Under the pieces are notes generated by a model. That model made no database searches. It was not told the DNA's origin and was given only the letters and a program-made list of their open reading frames with translations. Of a stretch of 64,000 bases of DNA, positions 12,370 to 62,898 are shown piece after piece. The stretch spans positions 124,001-188,000 of the forward strand of contig NZ_JAGSYD010000002.1 in assembly GCF_025685575.1 (NCBI RefSeq), given 5' to 3'. Each line of letters opens with the position of its first letter. The stretch's first letter is position 1. The translations under genes were made by a program, and so were the position numbers. The DNA comes from Granulicella cerasi (GTDB lineage Bacteria; Acidobacteriota; Terriglobia; Terriglobales; Acidobacteriaceae).

Positions 12370-12376
12370 CGTCCAC

Positions 12377-12412
12377 CCAGCGGGTGCCCCATGTCTCGCT
12401 GAGACGTGGGGC
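12377..12412. repeat. Dispersed palindrome copy 1
   Basis: GCCCCATGTCTC (12386-12397) pairs with GAGACGTGGGGC (12401-12412) around a 3-nt loop, with one G-T pair. The flank CGGGTGCCCC is the reverse complement of the GGGGCACCCG flank of the copies at 37.6-37.8 and 41.4 kb, so this copy is in the opposite orientation. It lies between two convergent genes. Confidence 0.7.
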
Positions 12413-13937: not shown

Positions 13938-13947
13938 TGGACGGCGA

Positions 13948-13982
13948 CAAAGAGGGGAGGCCACGGTGGCCGCCCCTCTTTG
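13948..13982. terminator. Terminator between the SDR and the antitoxin genes
   Basis: 16-nt arms (CAAAGAGGGGAGGCCA and TGGCCGCCCCTCTTTG) with one mismatch and a 3-nt loop lie between convergent stops. The T-run is short, so a bidirectional hairpin role is likely. Confidence 0.75.
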
Positions 13983-13994
13983 TTTGCAGTACTT

Positions 13995-30934: not shown

Positions 30935-31396
30935 ATGCGCATCGCGGTCGTCTCCGACACCCATGGTCTACAGCGCGAAGAGCTCCTGCCGGCCCTTGCT
31001 GGCGCCGAGTACATCCTGCACGCGGGCGACGTCGGCGACAACCGTATCCTTGACGCGCTGCGGAAGATCGCGCCGGTCACAGCGATCCGCGGCAACGTAG
31101 ACCTCTACGGCGATATGGCACTGCTGCCCGCGACCGAAGCCCTTGAGCTTGGCGGTCACTTCATCTACATGCTGCACTCGGTGCATGACCTCGACCTGAA
31201 GCCGGAGGCAGCAGGCTTCTCTGTCGTGCTCAGCGGCCACTCGCACAAACCCGGCGTCGAAACGCGCAACGGCGTGATGTACCTGAATCCCGGCTCCTGC
31301 GGCCCGCGCCGTTTCTCACTGCCGGTCACCTTCGCGTGGCTCGTCCTCGAACCCGGGCAATCCCCACACGCCGAGATCGTAGACCTTCTGAAATAG
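30935..31396 (+). CDS. YfcE/MJ0936-type metallophosphoesterase
   Basis: 153 residues. Metal-binding motifs are intact: SDTHG, HAGDVGD, GNVD, and SGHSHKPG near residue 101. The short length matches YfcE-type phosphodiesterases. It begins 3 bases after the permease stop, so it is co-transcribed, but no functional link to peptide uptake is known. A copy of the dispersed palindrome follows. Confidence 0.9.
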   Translation: MRIAVVSDTHGLQREELLPALAGAEYILHAGDVGDNRILDALRKIAPVTAIRGNVDLYGDMALLPATEALELGGHFIYMLHSVHDLDLKPEAAGFSVVLSGHSHKPGVETRNGVMYLNPGSCGPRRFSLPVTFAWLVLEPGQSPHAEIVDLLK

Positions 31397-31401
31397 CAGG
31401 A

Positions 31402-31437
31402 ACCGGTTGCCCCATGTCTCGCTGCTGAGGCGTGGGT
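31402..31437. repeat. Dispersed palindrome copy 2
   Basis: CCCATGTCTC (31411-31420) pairs with GAGGCGTGGG (31427-31436) over the loop GCTGCT, with two G-T pairs. The flank CCGGTTGCCCC matches the copy at 37567. It lies between the convergent metallophosphoesterase and DppB-type genes. Confidence 0.65.
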
Positions 31438-31534
31438 CCGCTTTCATGCGCCCAGGTAGTTGGAGCCGTTGTCCTCCCGCACACATCTGCGCATGAGAGC
31501 AGCGCGGTGGGACAGACGGCGCGGGTGGAGCGCT

Positions 31535-32479
31535 CTACTTCCGCATCCGCGGATCGGCCAGCGCGTACACAGCATCCGTCAGCAGATTCACGAGCACATA
31601 CGTTAGCCCGATCGCCAGTATGCAACCCTGCACCAGCGCGTAATCGCGGTTCGAGATCGCCGACAGCGTCAGGCGCCCCAGTCCCGGCCAGCCAAAGATC
31701 GTCTCCGTGACAATCGCGCCCGCGAGCAGCGAGCCGAACTGCAGGCCCATCACCGTCAGCACCGGGTTCAGCGCATTGCGCAGCGCGTGGCGATACACCA
31801 CCGCGCTTTCGCTCAACCCCTTCGCGCGCGCTGTGCGGATGTAGTCCTGGCTCAGTTCCTCGAGCATCGACGTCCGCACCATACGCATGAGGATCGCCGC
31901 CAACCCCAGCCCGAGCGTCACCGCGGGCAGCACCAGGTGCGCGAGGAAACTTCCTACACCTACGCCCGCGCCCGACACCGGCAACCATCCCAGCCCGATC
32001 GAAAACACCAGGATCAGCACCGGCCCCAGCGCAAAGTTCGGAAAGCTCAAGCCAAACAAACTCGCTACACCGAGCGAGCGATCCGTCCACGTATTCTTGC
32101 GCCGTGCCGCTGCCACACCCGCAGGAATCGCCACCAATGCGCCAAGAATCATCGCCGCCACCGTCAGCGCGAGCGTATACGGATAGCGTTGCAGGATCAG
32201 GTGTAACACCGAGTCATGCAAGCGGAGCGATTGCCCGAAGTCTGCGCGCGCCACTCCGCGCCAGTAATGCGTGTACTGCAGCCACAACGGCTGATCAAAG
32301 CCATACTGATGACGCAGATGATCGATATCACTCGCCGTCGCACCGTCGCCCAGCATCTGCGCGATGGGATCACCCGGCACGAGGTGGATCAGCAGAAACA
32401 CCACCGACACCACCACCCACAACACAGGCAACGTCACCACTACACGCTTCAACGCCAACCAACCAGCACTACGCTTCAC
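31535..32479 (-). CDS. Oligopeptide/dipeptide ABC transporter permease (DppB/OppB type)
   Basis: 314 residues. The N-terminal helix is followed by LIHLVPGDPIAQMLG and the loop HLRHQYGFDQPLWLQYTHYW typical of DppB. The EAA motif is SQDYIRTARAKGLSESAVVYRHALRNALNPV. Its ATG overlaps the stop of the CNNM-like gene by 4 bases (ATGA). The DppC-type partner lies on the opposite strand, converging, which is unusual because these genes normally sit side by side. Confidence 0.9.
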   Translation of the reverse strand: MKRSAGWLALKRVVVTLPVLWVVVSVVFLLIHLVPGDPIAQMLGDGATASDIDHLRHQYGFDQPLWLQYTHYWRGVARADFGQSLRLHDSVLHLILQRYPYTLALTVAAMILGALVAIPAGVAAARRKNTWTDRSLGVASLFGLSFPNFALGPVLILVFSIGLGWLPVSGAGVGVGSFLAHLVLPAVTLGLGLAAILMRMVRTSMLEELSQDYIRTARAKGLSESAVVYRHALRNALNPVLTVMGLQFGSLLAGAIVTETIFGWPGLGRLTLSAISNRDYALVQGCILAIGLTYVLVNLLTDAVYALADPRMRK

Positions 32480-35367: not shown

Positions 35368-36747
35368 CTACGCTCCCCGTTGCAGCGCTTCGAGCGTCCG
35401 CAGCACTTCGTCGGTGTTGGCTTCAAGCACGACCGGCTTCTTCTCGAGCGACTTCATCGCTGCGCGCTCCTCTGCCGGAGCGGTCGCCAACTCGGATTCC
35501 GTCAGCAGCTCGCCGCGGTGATAGTTGATCGTGTACTCCGGGTCCTTCAACGTGTGGCCGGTGAGCAGCAGCACGACGCGCTCTTCCGGAGCTACGCGGC
35601 CATCGGCCACCAGCTTCTTCAGGCCCGCGTACGTTACCGCCGACGCCGGTTCACAACCGATACCCTCGGCACCGATCTCCGCCTTCGCCAGCGCGATCTC
35701 GGCCTCTGAAACCTCTTCCACCCAACCGCCGGTCTCGGCGAGGATGCGAACAGCCTTCCTCCAGCTAGCCGGATTGCCGATGCGAATCGCGCTCGCGCGC
35801 GTCTCCGCGACCACCGGCTCAAGCGTCGCGCCTGCATCCTTCTGCATCGCACGGAAGAGCGGGTTCGCGCCGTGCGCCTGAATCACGCTGATCTTCGGCA
35901 CGCGGTGGATGAAGCCAAGGTGCTTCAACTCTGCAAAGCCCTTGCCCAGCGCCGAGCAATTGGCCAGGTTGCCACCCGGCACGATCAGGTGGTCCGGAAT
36001 ACGCCAATCGAGCTGCTCGAGGATCTCGAACGCCGGGGTCTTCTGGCCCTCCAGGCGATACGGGTTCACCGAGTTCAGCATGTACACCGGCGCGCGCTGT
36101 ACGAGCTCGTTCAACACGCGCACGCAGCCGTCAAAGTCCGTCTTCAGCTGCACCGTCACCGAGCCGTAATCCATCGACTGCGACAGCTTGCCCCAGGCAA
36201 TCTTGCCTTCGGGGATGAGCACCATCGACTTCAGCCCGGCGCGCGCGGCGTAGCCGGCCATCGCGGCGGAGGTGTTGCCCGTCGAAGCCACAGCCACCCA
36301 CTCGAAGCCGCGCGAAGCCGCTACCGACAGCGCGGAGGTCATCCCCGTGTCCTTGAAGCTGCCCGTCGGATTCATGCCCTGGTGCTTGGCCAGCAGGAAG
36401 CTCAGTCCGAGCTTCGCGGCGCACTTCGGCAGCTCATAAAGCGGAGTGTTGCCTTCGCGCAGCGTCACAATCTGGTCGTCGGCTACGATCGGCAGCAGGT
36501 CGCGGAAACGCCACACGCCCGACTGGTCAATCGCCATCGTCGAGGTGCGACGCTCGGCCCAGAGGTGGCGCAGCGCCGAAGGGTTCGGGCCGAAGGCTTC
36601 ATCCGCATTGGGCGCCGATGCGCTCCACGGATACTCGACCTCAAACAAATCACCGCACGACCGACAACGAAAATTGCTCGCGATTTCACTACCGGCGATT
36701 CTTTCGCCACAACCCGTGCATCGAAGACTATGTGTTGAAACATTCAT
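35368..36747 (-). CDS. thrC: Threonine synthase
   Basis: 459 residues. An N-terminal zinc ribbon (CTGCGERIAG... CRSCGDLF) precedes the PLP fold; NPTGSFKDTGMTSAL contains the PLP lysine. It converts O-phosphohomoserine to threonine. The extra zinc ribbon is known in a subset of threonine synthases. Its ATG (36745-36747) overlaps the most likely modA start region on the opposite strand. Confidence 0.95.
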   Translation of the reverse strand: MNVSTHSLRCTGCGERIAGSEIASNFRCRSCGDLFEVEYPWSASAPNADEAFGPNPSALRHLWAERRTSTMAIDQSGVWRFRDLLPIVADDQIVTLREGNTPLYELPKCAAKLGLSFLLAKHQGMNPTGSFKDTGMTSALSVAASRGFEWVAVASTGNTSAAMAGYAARAGLKSMVLIPEGKIAWGKLSQSMDYGSVTVQLKTDFDGCVRVLNELVQRAPVYMLNSVNPYRLEGQKTPAFEILEQLDWRIPDHLIVPGGNLANCSALGKGFAELKHLGFIHRVPKISVIQAHGANPLFRAMQKDAGATLEPVVAETRASAIRIGNPASWRKAVRILAETGGWVEEVSEAEIALAKAEIGAEGIGCEPASAVTYAGLKKLVADGRVAPEERVVLLLTGHTLKDPEYTINYHRGELLTESELATAPAEERAAMKSLEKKPVVLEANTDEVLRTLEALQRGA

Positions 36748-37538
36748 GGGAATCTTTTCTAGGGTATCGCAGGATCGCGCGCATTTCCGCGTGTTTGGCC
36801 GTTCTTCTCACATTGTTATCAGCGCATAAGCTGATCGCACAGGCCAAGGAACTGCACGTGGCCGCCGCCGCCGACCTCGCGCCCGTGCTGCCCATCCTCG
36901 CCGCGCAGTACGAAAAACAGACCGGCGTGAAGGTCATCGCAAGCTTCGGCTCCTCCGCCGCACTCACCACGCAACTGCAGAACGGCGCGCCTTTCGACGT
37001 GTTTCTCTCGGCCGACACCGCGCATCCGCAGCAACTCGCCGACGCCCACCTCTCCGATGGCGCCCTCATGCCCTACGCGCACGGCACGCTGGTGCTCTGG
37101 GCGCGGAAGGACTCCGTCGCCCAGCCGCTTACGCTCGCCTCGCTGCAAAAGCCCGAGGTCACGCGGATCGCGATGGCGAACCCGACGCACGCGCCCTACG
37201 GCCTCGCGGCCAAGCAGTACCTCACGCACGAACATCTGATCGCCGCGCTCGCGACGAAGCTCGTCACCGCCGAGAACATCGCGCAGACCGCACAGTTCGC
37301 CGAGAGCGGCAACGCGCAAGCCGGGCTGATTTCGCTGACCACCGCGAACACGCCGCACTTCCGCGAGATCGGCAGCTACGTCCTCATCCCGCAGGCAGAC
37401 TACGCGCCGCTCGTGCAGGCAGCGGTCGTAATGCACGACGCCAAAGACCGCACCGCCGCACATGCGTTTCTCAAGTGGCTCACCTGCACGAAGACGCAAG
37501 CGCAGCTCAAGCCACTCGGGCTGGAACCTGTTCGCTAG
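36732..37538 (+). CDS. modA: Molybdate ABC transporter substrate-binding protein
   Basis: About 268 residues. The mature domain is clear: ELHVAAAADLAPVLPILAAQYEKQTGVKVIASFGSS, GAPFDVFLSADTAHPQQL, and NPTHAPYGLAAKQYL. A signal peptide (ISACLAVLLTLLSAHKLIAQA) needs a non-ATG start. GTG 36732 and TTG 36735 are the best candidates, both overlapping the divergent thrC start by up to 16 bases. It binds molybdate in the periplasm. modB and modC lie 2.3 kb downstream beyond an oppositely oriented peptidase gene. Confidence 0.88.
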   Translation: MLKHSWESFLGYRRIARISACLAVLLTLLSAHKLIAQAKELHVAAAADLAPVLPILAAQYEKQTGVKVIASFGSSAALTTQLQNGAPFDVFLSADTAHPQQLADAHLSDGALMPYAHGTLVLWARKDSVAQPLTLASLQKPEVTRIAMANPTHAPYGLAAKQYLTHEHLIAALATKLVTAENIAQTAQFAESGNAQAGLISLTTANTPHFREIGSYVLIPQADYAPLVQAAVVMHDAKDRTAAHAFLKWLTCTKTQAQLKPLGLEPVR

Positions 37539-37566
37539 ACACTCCTCACAACGGCCACGCGCGTCG

Positions 37567-37599
37567 GTTGCCCCACATCTGCGCTGTTGCAGATGTGGG
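37567..37599. repeat. Dispersed palindrome copy 3
   Basis: CCCACATCTGC (37572-37582) pairs perfectly with GCAGATGTGGG (37589-37599) over GCTGTT. The left flank GGTTGCC is in the same orientation as the copy at 31402 and opposite to the copy that follows, so copies 3 and 4 form an inverted doublet. Confidence 0.75.
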
Positions 37600-37628
37600 A
37601 GAGCGAGAATCTAGAACCATCCAGAAAC

Positions 37629-37676
37629 ATCCTGCAAACCCACATCTCAAAATCGAGATGTGGGGCACCCGTTCGT
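37629..37676. repeat. Dispersed palindrome copy 4
   Basis: Element order: ATCCTGCAAA, CCCACATCTC (37639-37648), loop AAAATC, GAGATGTGGG (37655-37664), then GCACCCGTTCGT. The stem is perfect over 10 bp. Confidence 0.85.
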
Positions 37677-37763
37677 GTAGTTACTTCACATCCGTTGCCG
37701 GGTGCCCTCCGTACGCGGCCTTATGCGGACGGGTGGGCGGCCACCACCCTCACTACAGCCACC

Positions 37764-37810
37764 ATCCAGCAAACCCACATCTCAAAATCGAGATGTGGGC
37801 ACCCGTTCGT
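37764..37810. repeat. Dispersed palindrome copy 5
   Basis: ATCCAGCAAA, CCCACATCTC (37774-37783), AAAATC, GAGATGTGGG (37790-37799), CACCCGTTCGT. It is nearly identical to the copy at 37629, with one substitution and one deletion in the flanks. A degenerate GGGTGCCCTCCGTACGC partner precedes it near 37700. Confidence 0.85.
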
Positions 37811-37857
37811 GCGGGCGAGACGTCTTCATGCCTCACACGAACCACTAATGACTCGCC

Positions 37858-39846
37858 TCACTTCACATCCATCGCATCGTTCTCGCGATGGCTGTCCGGG
37901 ACCTTGTGCTCGGGGTCCAACACCACCCGCACCGCTTTCGCAGGCGTCACTACCGTAAACGTGTGCGAAGCGTTCTGCATCCACGTCTCCGCAGGCACTT
38001 GCACATCGACGTGCGCGCCGCCCTCGAGTTCCACGCGCAGTATGCATGGCAACACCAGCTTGTCCCGGTTCTCCACCGTCACCTTCACGCCCTTAGCGGG
38101 GGCTGCCGGATCGACATACGCGACCGCCGTCACCGCCACATCCCGCTGCCAGTTTTCGAAGTACCATCCACGCCAGAAGTAGCTGAGGTCTTCTCCGCCC
38201 TCGCTCTCCATCGTGCGGAAGAAGTCCGACGGCGACGGGTGCTTGTACGCCCAGTCCGCGATGTACTTGCGGAACGCACGATCGAAGCGCTCGGGGCCAA
38301 GAATCTGCTCGCGCAGCAACACCAGGCCGAACGCTCCCTTGAAGTACGTCACCGGATGGCGATACTCGTTGCGCACGACGTCCGAACGCATCATCAATGC
38401 CGGAGCGTTCGGGTCAGCAAGCACCTTCTGAATCTGGTCGGCAGGCGTCTGGTCCTTCAACGGAGCGTACTCGCCGTCACGCTTCGGGCCGTACTCGCCA
38501 TGATTGAAGTCGTCGCTCTCGAAGATGTCGATGAAGGTGTTGAAGCCCTCGTCCATCCACGCATGTGTGCGCTCGTTCGAGCCGACGATCATCGGGAACC
38601 ACGTATGCCCGATCTCATGCGCGGCGATGAAGAAGGTCACATCTTTGCGCTCCTGCGGCCCGTCGAAGACGATGCCCGGATACTCCATGCCCTCCGTTGG
38701 CCCGGCTACGTTGATCGCGTTCGGATACGGATACGGGAACCAGCGCGCCGAGAAGCGCTCCACCGAATCCTTCATGTACTCGGTCGAGCGCGACCACGCG
38801 TCCTGTCCGACGGCTTCGACCGGATACACGCTTTGCGCCAGCGCCGTTTTGCCCGCCGGCAAGTTGATCCGCGCCGCGTCCCACACAAACACTGGCGACG
38901 CCGAGAACGCCACATCGCGCGTGTTGTGCATCACGAAGCGCCAGGTCTTCGTGGATGTCGTCGGCTGCGCAGAAGCCGCTGCAGCCTCCTCCGCCGTGCG
39001 AATCATCACGGTCTTGTCGCTCTTGCGAGCTTCTGCCAACCGAGCGAGCTCCCCCTTCGTCAACACCTCGGCGGAGTTCACCAACTCACCCGAGCCGGCC
39101 ACGATGAAGTTCGCCGGAACCGTCACCGAGTAGGTGAAATCGCCGTACTCCAAGAAGAACTCATTCGCGAGATACGGCTCGGTGTTCCAGCCTTTCAGGT
39201 CGTCGTACACACAGAGCCGCGGGTACCACTGCGCGATGTCATAGACCTCGCCGTCTTTGTATTTCCCCCAGGACGTACGTCCGCCCCACTCGCCGGGAAC
39301 CGTGTAGTGGTAGGTCACTCGCAGACGAATCTTCCCGCCCGTCTTCAAGGGCGTCGGCAGCTCCACACGCATGCGCGTGTCGCTCACTACAAACTTCGCC
39401 GCAGCAGGCTTCGCGCCCTTGCCTTCACCCAGCAGCTCAACCACATCGAGCAAGTCGCCGTCCGTGGAACGGCCTTCCGAGCGCGCACGCTTGCCGCCCG
39501 CAAACGCCAACGAACGCGAGTCTGCGCGATAGGTGTTCTGCTCCATGTTCAGCCACAACACATCAAGCGCATCGGGCGAGTGGTTTGTATAGGTGATGAC
39601 CTCGCTCGCGCTCAGCGTCTTCGTCGCCGTGTCGATCTTCGCGTCAATCGCATAGTCCGCGCGGTTCTGCCAATGCTGTGGCCCGGGCGCGCCCGATGCC
39701 GAACGATACGCGTTCACCGACTCCGGCAACGTCAACGGAGCAAACGTCTCCAGCGGCTTGTAGTTGCTCACTGCAGGCGCCTGCGACCACACCGGCAGGC
39801 ACACGACGGCCACAGCCGCCAACGACGCACGCAAAAACAGGTTCAT
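37858..39846 (-). CDS. M1-family metallopeptidase, exported
   Basis: 662 residues with a signal peptide (MNLFLRASLAAVAVVCLPVWSQA). The zinc site HEIGHTWF near residue 409 is followed about 19 residues later by the third ligand Glu in WMDEGFNTF. The usual GAMEN substrate motif is replaced by EGMEYPG (GMEYP), typical of this bacterial branch. It is an aminopeptidase-like periplasmic enzyme degrading peptides. The gene separates modA from modBC, in reverse orientation, with palindromic repeats at its 3' side. Confidence 0.92.
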   Translation of the reverse strand: MNLFLRASLAAVAVVCLPVWSQAPAVSNYKPLETFAPLTLPESVNAYRSASGAPGPQHWQNRADYAIDAKIDTATKTLSASEVITYTNHSPDALDVLWLNMEQNTYRADSRSLAFAGGKRARSEGRSTDGDLLDVVELLGEGKGAKPAAAKFVVSDTRMRVELPTPLKTGGKIRLRVTYHYTVPGEWGGRTSWGKYKDGEVYDIAQWYPRLCVYDDLKGWNTEPYLANEFFLEYGDFTYSVTVPANFIVAGSGELVNSAEVLTKGELARLAEARKSDKTVMIRTAEEAAAASAQPTTSTKTWRFVMHNTRDVAFSASPVFVWDAARINLPAGKTALAQSVYPVEAVGQDAWSRSTEYMKDSVERFSARWFPYPYPNAINVAGPTEGMEYPGIVFDGPQERKDVTFFIAAHEIGHTWFPMIVGSNERTHAWMDEGFNTFIDIFESDDFNHGEYGPKRDGEYAPLKDQTPADQIQKVLADPNAPALMMRSDVVRNEYRHPVTYFKGAFGLVLLREQILGPERFDRAFRKYIADWAYKHPSPSDFFRTMESEGGEDLSYFWRGWYFENWQRDVAVTAVAYVDPAAPAKGVKVTVENRDKLVLPCILRVELEGGAHVDVQVPAETWMQNASHTFTVVTPAKAVRVVLDPEHKVPDSHRENDAMDVK

Positions 39847-41253: not shown

Positions 41254-41264
41254 GCAACGCCAGA

Positions 41265-41310
41265 ATCCTGCAAACCCATGTCTCGGTGCTGAGACATGGG
41301 TTTGCAGGAT
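41265..41310. repeat. Dispersed palindrome copy 6, extended 20-bp stem
   Basis: Positions 41265-41284 and 41291-41310 are perfect 20-bp inverted arms around GGTGCT. The outer arm ATCCTGCAAA equals the left flank of the 37629 copy and the inner arm CCCATGTCTC is the family core, so here the flank is present on both sides. It lies between convergent modC and murB. Confidence 0.85.
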
Positions 41311-41375
41311 GCACGAGGAAACCCGAACCCATCTTTTTGGGGGGCTGACTTCGAGGGTCACGAAAACCGCGCGAA

Positions 41376-41413
41376 CCAAAATCTCAAACTCGAGATGTGG
41401 GGCACCCGTTCGT
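41376..41413. repeat. Dispersed palindrome copy 7, degenerate left arm
   Basis: CCAAAATCTC, loop AAACTC, GAGATGTGGG, then GCACCCGTTCGT. The right arm and right flank are identical to the 37629 copy; the left arm carries two changes that reduce the stem to 5 bp plus flanking pairs. Confidence 0.7.
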
Positions 41414-41451
41414 TGAGCGTTCGATCGCTCGTCTTTCTACTTGCGCTTGAA

Positions 41452-62844: not shown

Positions 62845-62884
62845 CAAAAGGAAACGGTCGATGCTCGCATCGGCCGTTTCCTTT
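62845..62884. terminator. Strong bidirectional terminator
   Basis: An 18-bp stem with a single G-T pair and the loop CTCG starts with AAAA and ends with TTTT. It serves both the glycine-zipper gene and the convergent TPR gene. Confidence 0.92.
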
Positions 62885-62898
62885 TGCGTTCTCTGCGA

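Follow-up and report, generated by a model that had tools for sequence, protein, structure and literature searches.

The hairpin cluster at 37.57–37.81 kb of the window, a 64,000-nucleotide stretch of Granulicella cerasi DNA (G000:C2:124001-188000), is very probably part of a REPIN family, i.e. of non-autonomous intergenic hairpins most likely mobilised in trans by the HUH tyrosine transposase RAYT1. A first-pass annotation had proposed REPIN-like palindromes moved by a RAYT enzyme. This interpretation is supported by the many copies in the genome, by their arrangement in inverted doublets, and by a single-copy RAYT1 gene flanked by the same palindrome. Sequence comparison further reveals the folding potential of the doublets, the absence of copies from syntenic sites in two relatives, and a GTGC head around most of the related RAYT genes. 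That head, a second REP class with a RAYT of its own and composite units of both classes go beyond what had been annotated. The genome (4.08 Mb, 7 contigs) is 98.7% complete.

The three palindromes claimed for nt 37567–37810 can be read from the sequence at 37572–37599, 37639–37664 and 37774–37799. The first is CCCACATCTGC-gctgtt-GCAGATGTGGG, and the other two are both CCCACATCTC-aaaatc-GAGATGTGGG. The second and third copies have in common, as had been stated, the left flank ATCC[T/A]GCAAA and the right flank CACCCGTTCGT. The orientation of the head (GGGTGC / GCACCC), degenerate in the first copy, shows this copy to be indeed inverted with respect to the second. In a search with the covariance model R1 with filters off, the three cluster copies have E-values of 1e-17 to 2.5e-9, and the copies listed earlier near 12377, 31402, 41265 and 41376 were all recovered (Table 1). 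R1 was built from 35 rows, 5 of them from the window (the three cluster copies and the two at 41 kb, via loci L002 and L011). Therefore, among the window copies, only the E-values of those at 12374 and 31397 are independent.

Table 1. Hairpins and flanking genes of the window, and RAYT genes of the genome.
Feature	Position	Strand	Evidence and remarks
Class I REP, type b	37558..37613	+	R1 44.0 bits, E 2.5e-9; copy used in R1
Class I REP, type a	37625..37678	-	R1 76.2 bits, E 1e-17; copy used in R1
REPIN, REPs 37558..37613 and 37625..37678, inverted, heads outward	37558..37678	.	Spacing and fold
Class II REP	37700..37737	+	Head GGGTGC, mismatched stem; class of the REPs flanking RAYT2
Class I REP, type a	37760..37812	-	R1 60.6 bits; copy used in R1
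Class I hairpin, tails on both sides, without GGGTGC head	41261..41314	.	R1 E 4e-10; matched on both strands
Class I REP, decayed stem	41362..41415	-	R1 58.8 bits, E 3e-13; copy used in R1
Class I REP, shortened loop	12374..12424	+	R1 34.5 bits, E 7e-7
Degenerate class I REP	31397..31445	+	R1 25.2 bits, E 2e-4
Upstream gene, substrate-binding protein SBP_bac_11	36618..37538	+	Pfam PF13531, E 2.6e-57
Downstream gene, M1-type peptidase	37858..39846	-	Pfam PF01433, E 1e-14; convergent with the SBP_bac_11 gene
RAYT1	G000:C1:280482-280988 (L016:1456-1962)		168 aa; NCBIfam REP_Tyr_transpos
RAYT2	C5:123359-123880		Flanked by two pairs of class II REPs
RAYT3	C3:99552-100007		Two GTAG-headed hairpins beside the gene

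The REP at 37558..37613 has a degenerate head, CGGTTGC, an 11-bp stem (37572–37582/37589–37599) and the tail AGAGCGAGAATC. Its neighbour at 37625..37678 has the head ACGAACGGGTGC, the stem CCCACATCTC, the loop GATTTT and the tail TTTGCAGGATG. The REPIN that they form has a start-to-start distance of 67, within the 61–68 class of the genome, and folds as DNA into one long hairpin (-28.9 kcal/mol, z -4.86). A fourth hairpin, at 37700–37737 between the second and third copies, is absent from the earlier list. Its 5′ arm is one base shorter than in the class II copies beside RAYT2; on its own it folds no better than shuffled sequences (z -1.03), and a stricter hairpin scan missed it. The segment 37700–37812 looks like the right half of a composite unit of class I, class II and class I REPs. 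At 41261..41314 the arrangement is ATCCTGCAAA...TTTGCAGGAT with perfect 20-nt arms, including a symmetric perfect 46-nt copy at 41265–41310. It mirrors the published 'double foot' REPs and looks like an inverted pair that has lost its middle.

The SBP_bac_11 gene stops about 20 bp ahead of the cluster. Between 36618 and 41253, the genes for a substrate-binding protein, a permease and an ATPase are split by the M1-type peptidase gene on the opposite strand, and the same gene order is found in the relatives G006 and G009; our guess is that the transporter genes are a molybdate-type set. Rfam at gathering thresholds reports three tRNAs only over the whole window. With at most one mismatch, CCCACATCTC has 13 matches in the window against 5.3 in shuffles, and 1 of 100 shuffles is as high. 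Such enrichment of a short motif within the window is weak evidence alone; the genome-wide count is decisive.

The exact stem pattern CCCANNTCTC-N4-10-GAGANNTGGG occurs at 102 places in the genome, and the reversed control at 0. The search with R1 returns 150 rows at 149 places or more, a lower bound with 150 of 1301 candidates scored. The genome-wide pattern search suggested in the first-pass annotation thus yields many further copies. Read head first, a class I REP consists of CGGGTGC, a perfect 10–11-bp hairpin CCCANRTCTC / GAGAYNTGGG with a loop of mostly 6–9 nt, and a tail, which is TTTGCAGGAT or TTTCCAGAGA in type a and AGAGCGAGGAT in type b. The base adjoining the stem is C in 31 of the 35 aligned copies and G in 3. 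Tail positions +4/+5 are GC in 24 of these copies and CC in 9; C occupies +5 in 33. The copies are unevenly spread, contig C1 holding 100 of the 149 modelled ones (77 per Mb, vs 20–28 on C2, C3 and C6).

Compensatory changes in the stems, noted earlier from a handful of copies, hold for the larger set. The two positions left free by the pattern are fully complementary in 66 of the 75 listed copies, all of which are on C1 (27 further copies enter the total only); shuffles of these positions give a mean of 23.9 and a maximum of 35 in 2000. The 35-row alignment shows both-sided changes at three pairs, with 98.6% of the cells paired. The count of 66 is the cleaner test of covariation because most rows of the alignment came from palindromic patterns.

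The family is extragenic. Among the 64 placeable copies (of at least 149), 63 lie outside called genes and the 64th lies inside a miscalled antisense ORF; 6 of the 63 are beyond the outermost called gene of their locus. Genes were called with a home-made caller, which picked antisense ORFs at two window genes, and only its coding/non-coding result was used. Gene orientation was used for the four Pfam-supported window loci only, since the strand calls are unreliable.

At all four of these loci the hairpins sit just past a stop codon, between convergent genes. They might then be intrinsic or bidirectional terminators, or mRNA-stabilising hairpins, kept for an RNA function in the host, and the covariation of the stems would suit such a role. 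However, no terminator-like site (a hairpin followed by a T run) is present within 37400–38000, the unpaired head and tail are conserved, and doublets with heads outward recur at preferred spacings. The flanking of a RAYT gene and the absence of copies at orthologous intergenic sites would also be unexpected of terminators. We consider a terminator or stabiliser origin very improbable. A secondary effect of the hairpins on the host may exist.

Doublets dominate the arrangement of the copies. Another copy is found within 400 bp of 75 of the 149 modelled copies, giving 42 neighbouring pairs closer than 400 bp where uniform placement would give about 2. Most of these pairs (31 of 42) are inverted with heads outward and keep to preferred spacings; 9 are tandem and 2 have heads inward. 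The spacing of the 31 is 78–84 in 16, 61–68 in 6, 141–145 in 5 and elsewhere in 4. Alignment of 15 of the 16 units of the 78–84 class gives a mean column identity of 79%, REPs included, and the two REPs within a unit differ in the tail and usually in the stem (types a and b). These units are probably copies of one unit because their spacers also align. Folded as single-stranded DNA, five of five doublets taken from the 31, the window doublet included, form one long hairpin that closes through GGGTGCCCCA/TGGGGCACCC (z -4.86 to -8.12).

Similar doublets are known. In Pseudomonas fluorescens SBW25, REPINs are inverted doublets over-represented at spacings of 71 and 110 bp (Bertels and Rainey 2011, PMC3116915). 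Like those, the present REPINs are extragenic, fold into one hairpin, and have each class linked to its own RAYT. They differ in the GTGC head and in the pairing of types a and b in the 78–84 units. Putative transposition intermediates were seen for the SBW25 REPINs, whereas mobility of those of G. cerasi is a prediction from sequence.

Four of the five doublets at 141–145 bp, one of them degenerate, have a class II REP enclosed by their two class I REPs. The flanks of these composite units are alignable. The exact pattern of class II, with its GGGTGC head and mismatched stem, occurs at 15 places in the genome. Composite two-RAYT units are not a new idea, since hybrid BIMEs whose REPs belong to two RAYTs were reported for some cases in Stenotrophomonas (PMC2817692).

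The genome has four Y1_Tnp matches, RAYT1, RAYT2, RAYT3 and one IS200-like gene. RAYT1 scores 109.2 bits against REP_Tyr_transpos (NF047646, cut-off 80), and its sole match in a PDB search up to E 0.1 is TnpAREP 4er8 (E 2.6e-14). Its translation holds the EHVH (HUH) and YIHRNP (Y) motifs, and its nearest named relatives are from Acidobacteriaceae MAGs. The gene is single-copy, the next best in the genome being 50% and 35% identical. A single-copy RAYT gene flanked by the same palindrome had been named as a check of the proposal, and RAYT1 is such a gene, with one class I REP 24 bp upstream and another 12 bp downstream (L016 1406–1431 and 1975–2000), inverted and heads outward. The GG stem type that they carry is also more frequent than any other in the list of copies (36/75). 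Directly before the intact upstream REP, at L016:1337-1400, lie two tandem half-REPs, each with the head, the 5′ arm and GACATCACC and without the 3′ arm. The GTAG hairpin pattern of RAYT3 is unamplified, with those two places only in the genome at up to 3 mismatches. Within 400 bp of the IS200-like gene (L014) there is no hairpin of the GGGTGC or GGTTGC type.

As in TnpAREP class 2 (PMC6006769), RAYT1 has HUH and Y motifs, the YIHRNP sequence corresponding to the Y---NP signature, and cognate hairpins beside the gene. As for the RAYTs of Stenotrophomonas, Pseudomonas, enterobacteria and others (PMC2817692), the gene lies between inverted REPs, REPs coevolve with their RAYT, stem changes are complementary, and REPs gather in clusters (BIMEs). 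Acidobacteria are represented in TnpAREP class 3, about 600 hairpins being reported for Solibacter (PMC6006769). That class, TnpAY1 class 3, has a CnGA foot and Y----Q; RAYT1, with a GTGC foot and YIHRNP, has neither.

By this likeness, the replicating unit would be two inverted REPs with heads outward. As single-stranded DNA, the doublet could close into a long hairpin via GGGTGCCCCA.TGGGGCACCC, and RAYT1 would be expected to bind the folded strand, by analogy with the studied TnpAREP and IS200 enzymes. GTGC, placed 5′ of the hairpin foot, would act as the guide for choosing the cleavage site, and RAYT1 would cut and rejoin the strand. Class II goes with RAYT2, and some units combine both classes.

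The stem pattern is found in 25 of 28 genomes of the genus (G. cerasi included), in 6 of 21 genomes of the family's other genera and in 0 of 32 outside the family. It has no match in G006, G009 and G021. G006 and G009 are syntenic with the window around the cluster locus. In the window, about 320 bp separate the solute-binding-protein gene from the peptidase gene, compared with about 280 bp in G006 and about 50 bp in G009; the ABC ATPase gene and murB are about 200, 70 and 35 bp apart, respectively. A third gap, 31396–31535, has a similar length in G006; the gene next to it is inverted in G009. Neither 20-kb stretch, from G006 or from G009, gave an R1 match up to E 10 or a GGGTGC-headed hairpin. 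Copies are thus absent at three syntenic sites in G006 and at two comparable ones in G009. This fits a lineage-specific gain, but it could instead be a loss.

Other relatives carry copies without a close RAYT1. G027 (98% complete) has 44 stem-pattern copies, RAYT1 matches of only 30–31% identity, and three RAYT genes with no class I hairpin beside them. G001 and G007 have 14 and 13 copies; neither has a RAYT1 match at E 1e-10, though other RAYTs are found in both with the family profile. Given these three genomes, copies can persist, or be moved, without RAYT1, and REPs can outlive or escape their RAYT. Relatives of RAYT1 with internal stops occur in G003, G008, G010, G023 and G026. Three such stop-bearing genes are L098, L100 and L112, and their genomes (G003, G008 and G023) retain 17, 12 and 10 stem-pattern copies. 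Among 19 hand-sorted genus genomes of at least 90% completeness, the correlation of copy number with the presence of a class-I-flanked RAYT is weak (one-sided p 0.049, 7 vs 12 genomes).

The orphan copies, the weak correlation and the degeneracy of the window copies would all agree with copies that an IS or a lost RAYT had spread, as a classical MITE or relic family, and that RAYT1 does not mobilise today. Against this stands the open RAYT1 gene, whose flanking REPs are intact and have the stem type most often listed. Nor do the other Y1_Tnp genes offer a ready source, as RAYT2 has class II flanks, RAYT3 has GTAG hairpins and the IS200-like gene lacks a hairpin of the GGGTGC or GGTTGC type over 400 bp. 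We regard a MITE or relic family as unlikely, and mobilisation by RAYT1 as the better account of the class I REPs.

The GTGC head extends beyond G. cerasi. After removal of 18 repeats and fragments, 87 RAYT loci were left; 48 RAYT1/2-like genes (at least 42% identity) and 16 RAYT3-like genes were counted, and 23 more distant ones were excluded. The 48 include genes cut by contig ends and the near-identical L033 and L034. When all 256 tetranucleotides were screened in front of hairpins of at least 9 pairs within 300 bp of the 48 RAYT1/2-like genes, GTGC was found at 31, against 1.6 expected from shuffles and 11 for the runner-up. A GGGTGC hairpin lies within 350 bp of 41 of the 48, on both sides in 21; the corresponding counts are 1 of 26 for solute-binding-protein loci of the genus and 1 of 16 for RAYT3-like genes. 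Searched against 30 loci, R1 matched 14 of the 19 RAYT loci and none of the 11 controls. A tree of 72 proteins clusters the GTGC label (9 changes vs 24.3 in shuffles, 0/500 as low), and a few GTGG-headed genes sit among the GTGC-labelled ones. The counts are non-independent because of shared ancestry and near-identical rows. Since the stems behind the head vary widely between genes, head and foot are kept while stems turn over. In L041, a Phycisphaerae MAG locus (Planctomycetota), GTGC hairpins with the stem CACGGACAAGC are found on both sides of the RAYT gene.

Acidobacterial genes of this kind were noticed before. Di Nocera 2013 (PMC3733652) described a 'sharply defined' acidobacterial group of RAYT-like genes with inverted-repeat flanks, and the Koribacter 1552 repeats as forming a family. 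These genes were classed as TIRYTs, whose long terminal repeats are unrelated to GTAG repeats, some of them sharing GGGGWSAS. The consensus here, GGGGCACC, does not fit GGGGWSAS, a motif which the paper gives for some TIRs only. GGGTGC and CACCC were not found in the text of that paper; its Figure 9, with TIR sequences, may show the same hairpins. The acidobacterial TIRYT genes are thus partial prior art for the GTGC-headed family. Following that classification, the RAYT genes here would carry terminal inverted repeats ('TIRtrons'), and the GGGTGC head would be a binding site of another protein and no guide. What is found, however, is local hairpins that carry the head at their foot and are dispersed in doublets, and some RAYTs of the same broad group (L113, L117 and L132) have GTGG at that place, as a variable guide predicts. 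The terminal-repeat interpretation therefore seems quite unlikely, and the head is better taken as a putative guide.

The head sets the family apart from those described. Class I shares with the GTAG and CGTC superfamilies (PMC3733652) a palindrome with an unpaired tag at one end. Its foot is GTGC, where the GTAG superfamily has GTAG or GTGG; the CGTC superfamily has a CGTC tag and no transposase, and here the tag is GTGC and a RAYT is linked. The head given in PMC2817692 is GT(A/G)G, and on our reading GTGC appears in its Table 1 only inside palindromes; acidobacteria are not mentioned in that paper. The survey in PMC6006769 would miss GTGC REPs because its automatic search required GTAG or GTGG. 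A literature search, including papers with GGGTGCCCC or GGGGCACCC and made mostly outside subscription papers, had no GTGC-headed REPs among the matches listed. What appears to be new here is the GTGC-headed (GGGTGC) REPs together with a RAYT; the REPIN/RAYT organisation itself was already known.

In the E. coli enzyme, GTAG is contacted by W94, Q95, E100, H101 and R104 (PMC6006769). This stretch aligns without gaps to the present proteins, which have W L D F L in RAYT1, W Q D F E in RAYT2 and W Q D R R in RAYT3. RAYT1 thus does not have the E. coli-type set, and the RAYT3 set consists of residues reported for other GTAG-type subclasses (PMC6006769). Phe at position 101 (H101 in E. coli) is found in 30 of the 34 readable GTGC-labelled genes (44 labelled in all). 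The exceptions are L059, L133, L114 and L115, and for L059 and L133 the hairpins behind the GTGC label probably arose by chance. Arg is at 101 in all three GTAG-labelled genes. F101 is not confined to GTGC, being present also in 6 of 17 readable unlabelled and in 3 of 4 readable GTGG-type genes. It may go with G at guide position 3, or merely reflect descent, as this is a correlation with a small GTAG group. Residue 104 was considered as a switch for guide base 4 (R with G, another residue with C) and was rejected, since L117 and L132 (GTGG) lack R and L114 and L116 (GTGC-type heads) have it. GTAG was likewise rejected as a general head of RAYT3-like genes; the scripted label was given at L017, L134 and L137 only, L133 has one GTAG and one GTGC, and in the tetranucleotide screen GTAG is not among the top, TGAA leading with 5 of 16.

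In the papers considered here, mutants of GTAG REPs served to test which guide bases a RAYT needs and whether the cut site is set by the guide. REPtrons of E. coli, S. maltophilia and Marinomonas were tested in vitro (PMC8266576), and the perfect (group 3) and mismatched (group 2) stems described there parallel class I and class II. The E. coli enzyme tolerates no change in GTAG, and with the Stenotrophomonas enzyme GTAC abolished cleavage. The Marinomonas enzyme, given GTAC, shifted its cut to GA and GT. GTGC was not found in the text of that paper. A GTGC tag in place of the usual GTAG/GTGG could change the position of the RAYT cut. Applied to GTGC, the Marinomonas guide rule would predict a cut at GC or GA, and the GC at tail +4/+5 is a candidate site, to be taken as a lead only. 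For a GTGG head the rule would give CC or CA.

A wider possibility, which we put forward tentatively and hold to be somewhat less probable than its opposite, is that GTGC-tagged REPs form a third superfamily next to those tagged GTAG and CGTC, with its centre in Acidobacteriota and an extension to at least one Planctomycetota RAYT (L041). Their RAYTs, with a W..R[YF].DFN core, would be guide-shifted at the fourth base and cut GC (or GA) instead of CT/CA, and the GTGG-headed members would be natural intermediates. GTGC and GTAG hairpins accompany different RAYTs of one genome, and GTGC and GTGG heads with many stems occur within a single broad RAYT group. In this natural series, RAYTs can be compared with respect to head, stem, contact residues and predicted cut site.

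Some local arrangements were also observed. The 400–500 kb region of C1 holds 30 modelled copies, and RAYT1 is at 280 kb on the same contig. The GC skew of the sampled loci crosses zero in this dense region, but the sampling is sparse, and its identification as the replication terminus was not adopted. At L001:1582-1824 (G000:C1:838941-839183), four class I REPs lie in tandem with a spacing of 71–73 bp, adjoining an inverted one. In the window itself, near-perfect inverted repeats at 62845–62886 and 13947–13983 (20-nt and 18-nt arms) are unlike the REPIN family described here. The only two heads-in pairs among the 42, L197 (G000:C1:440275-440408) and L198 (442187-442320), are each 80 bp apart, lie 2 kb from each other and are alike in sequence.
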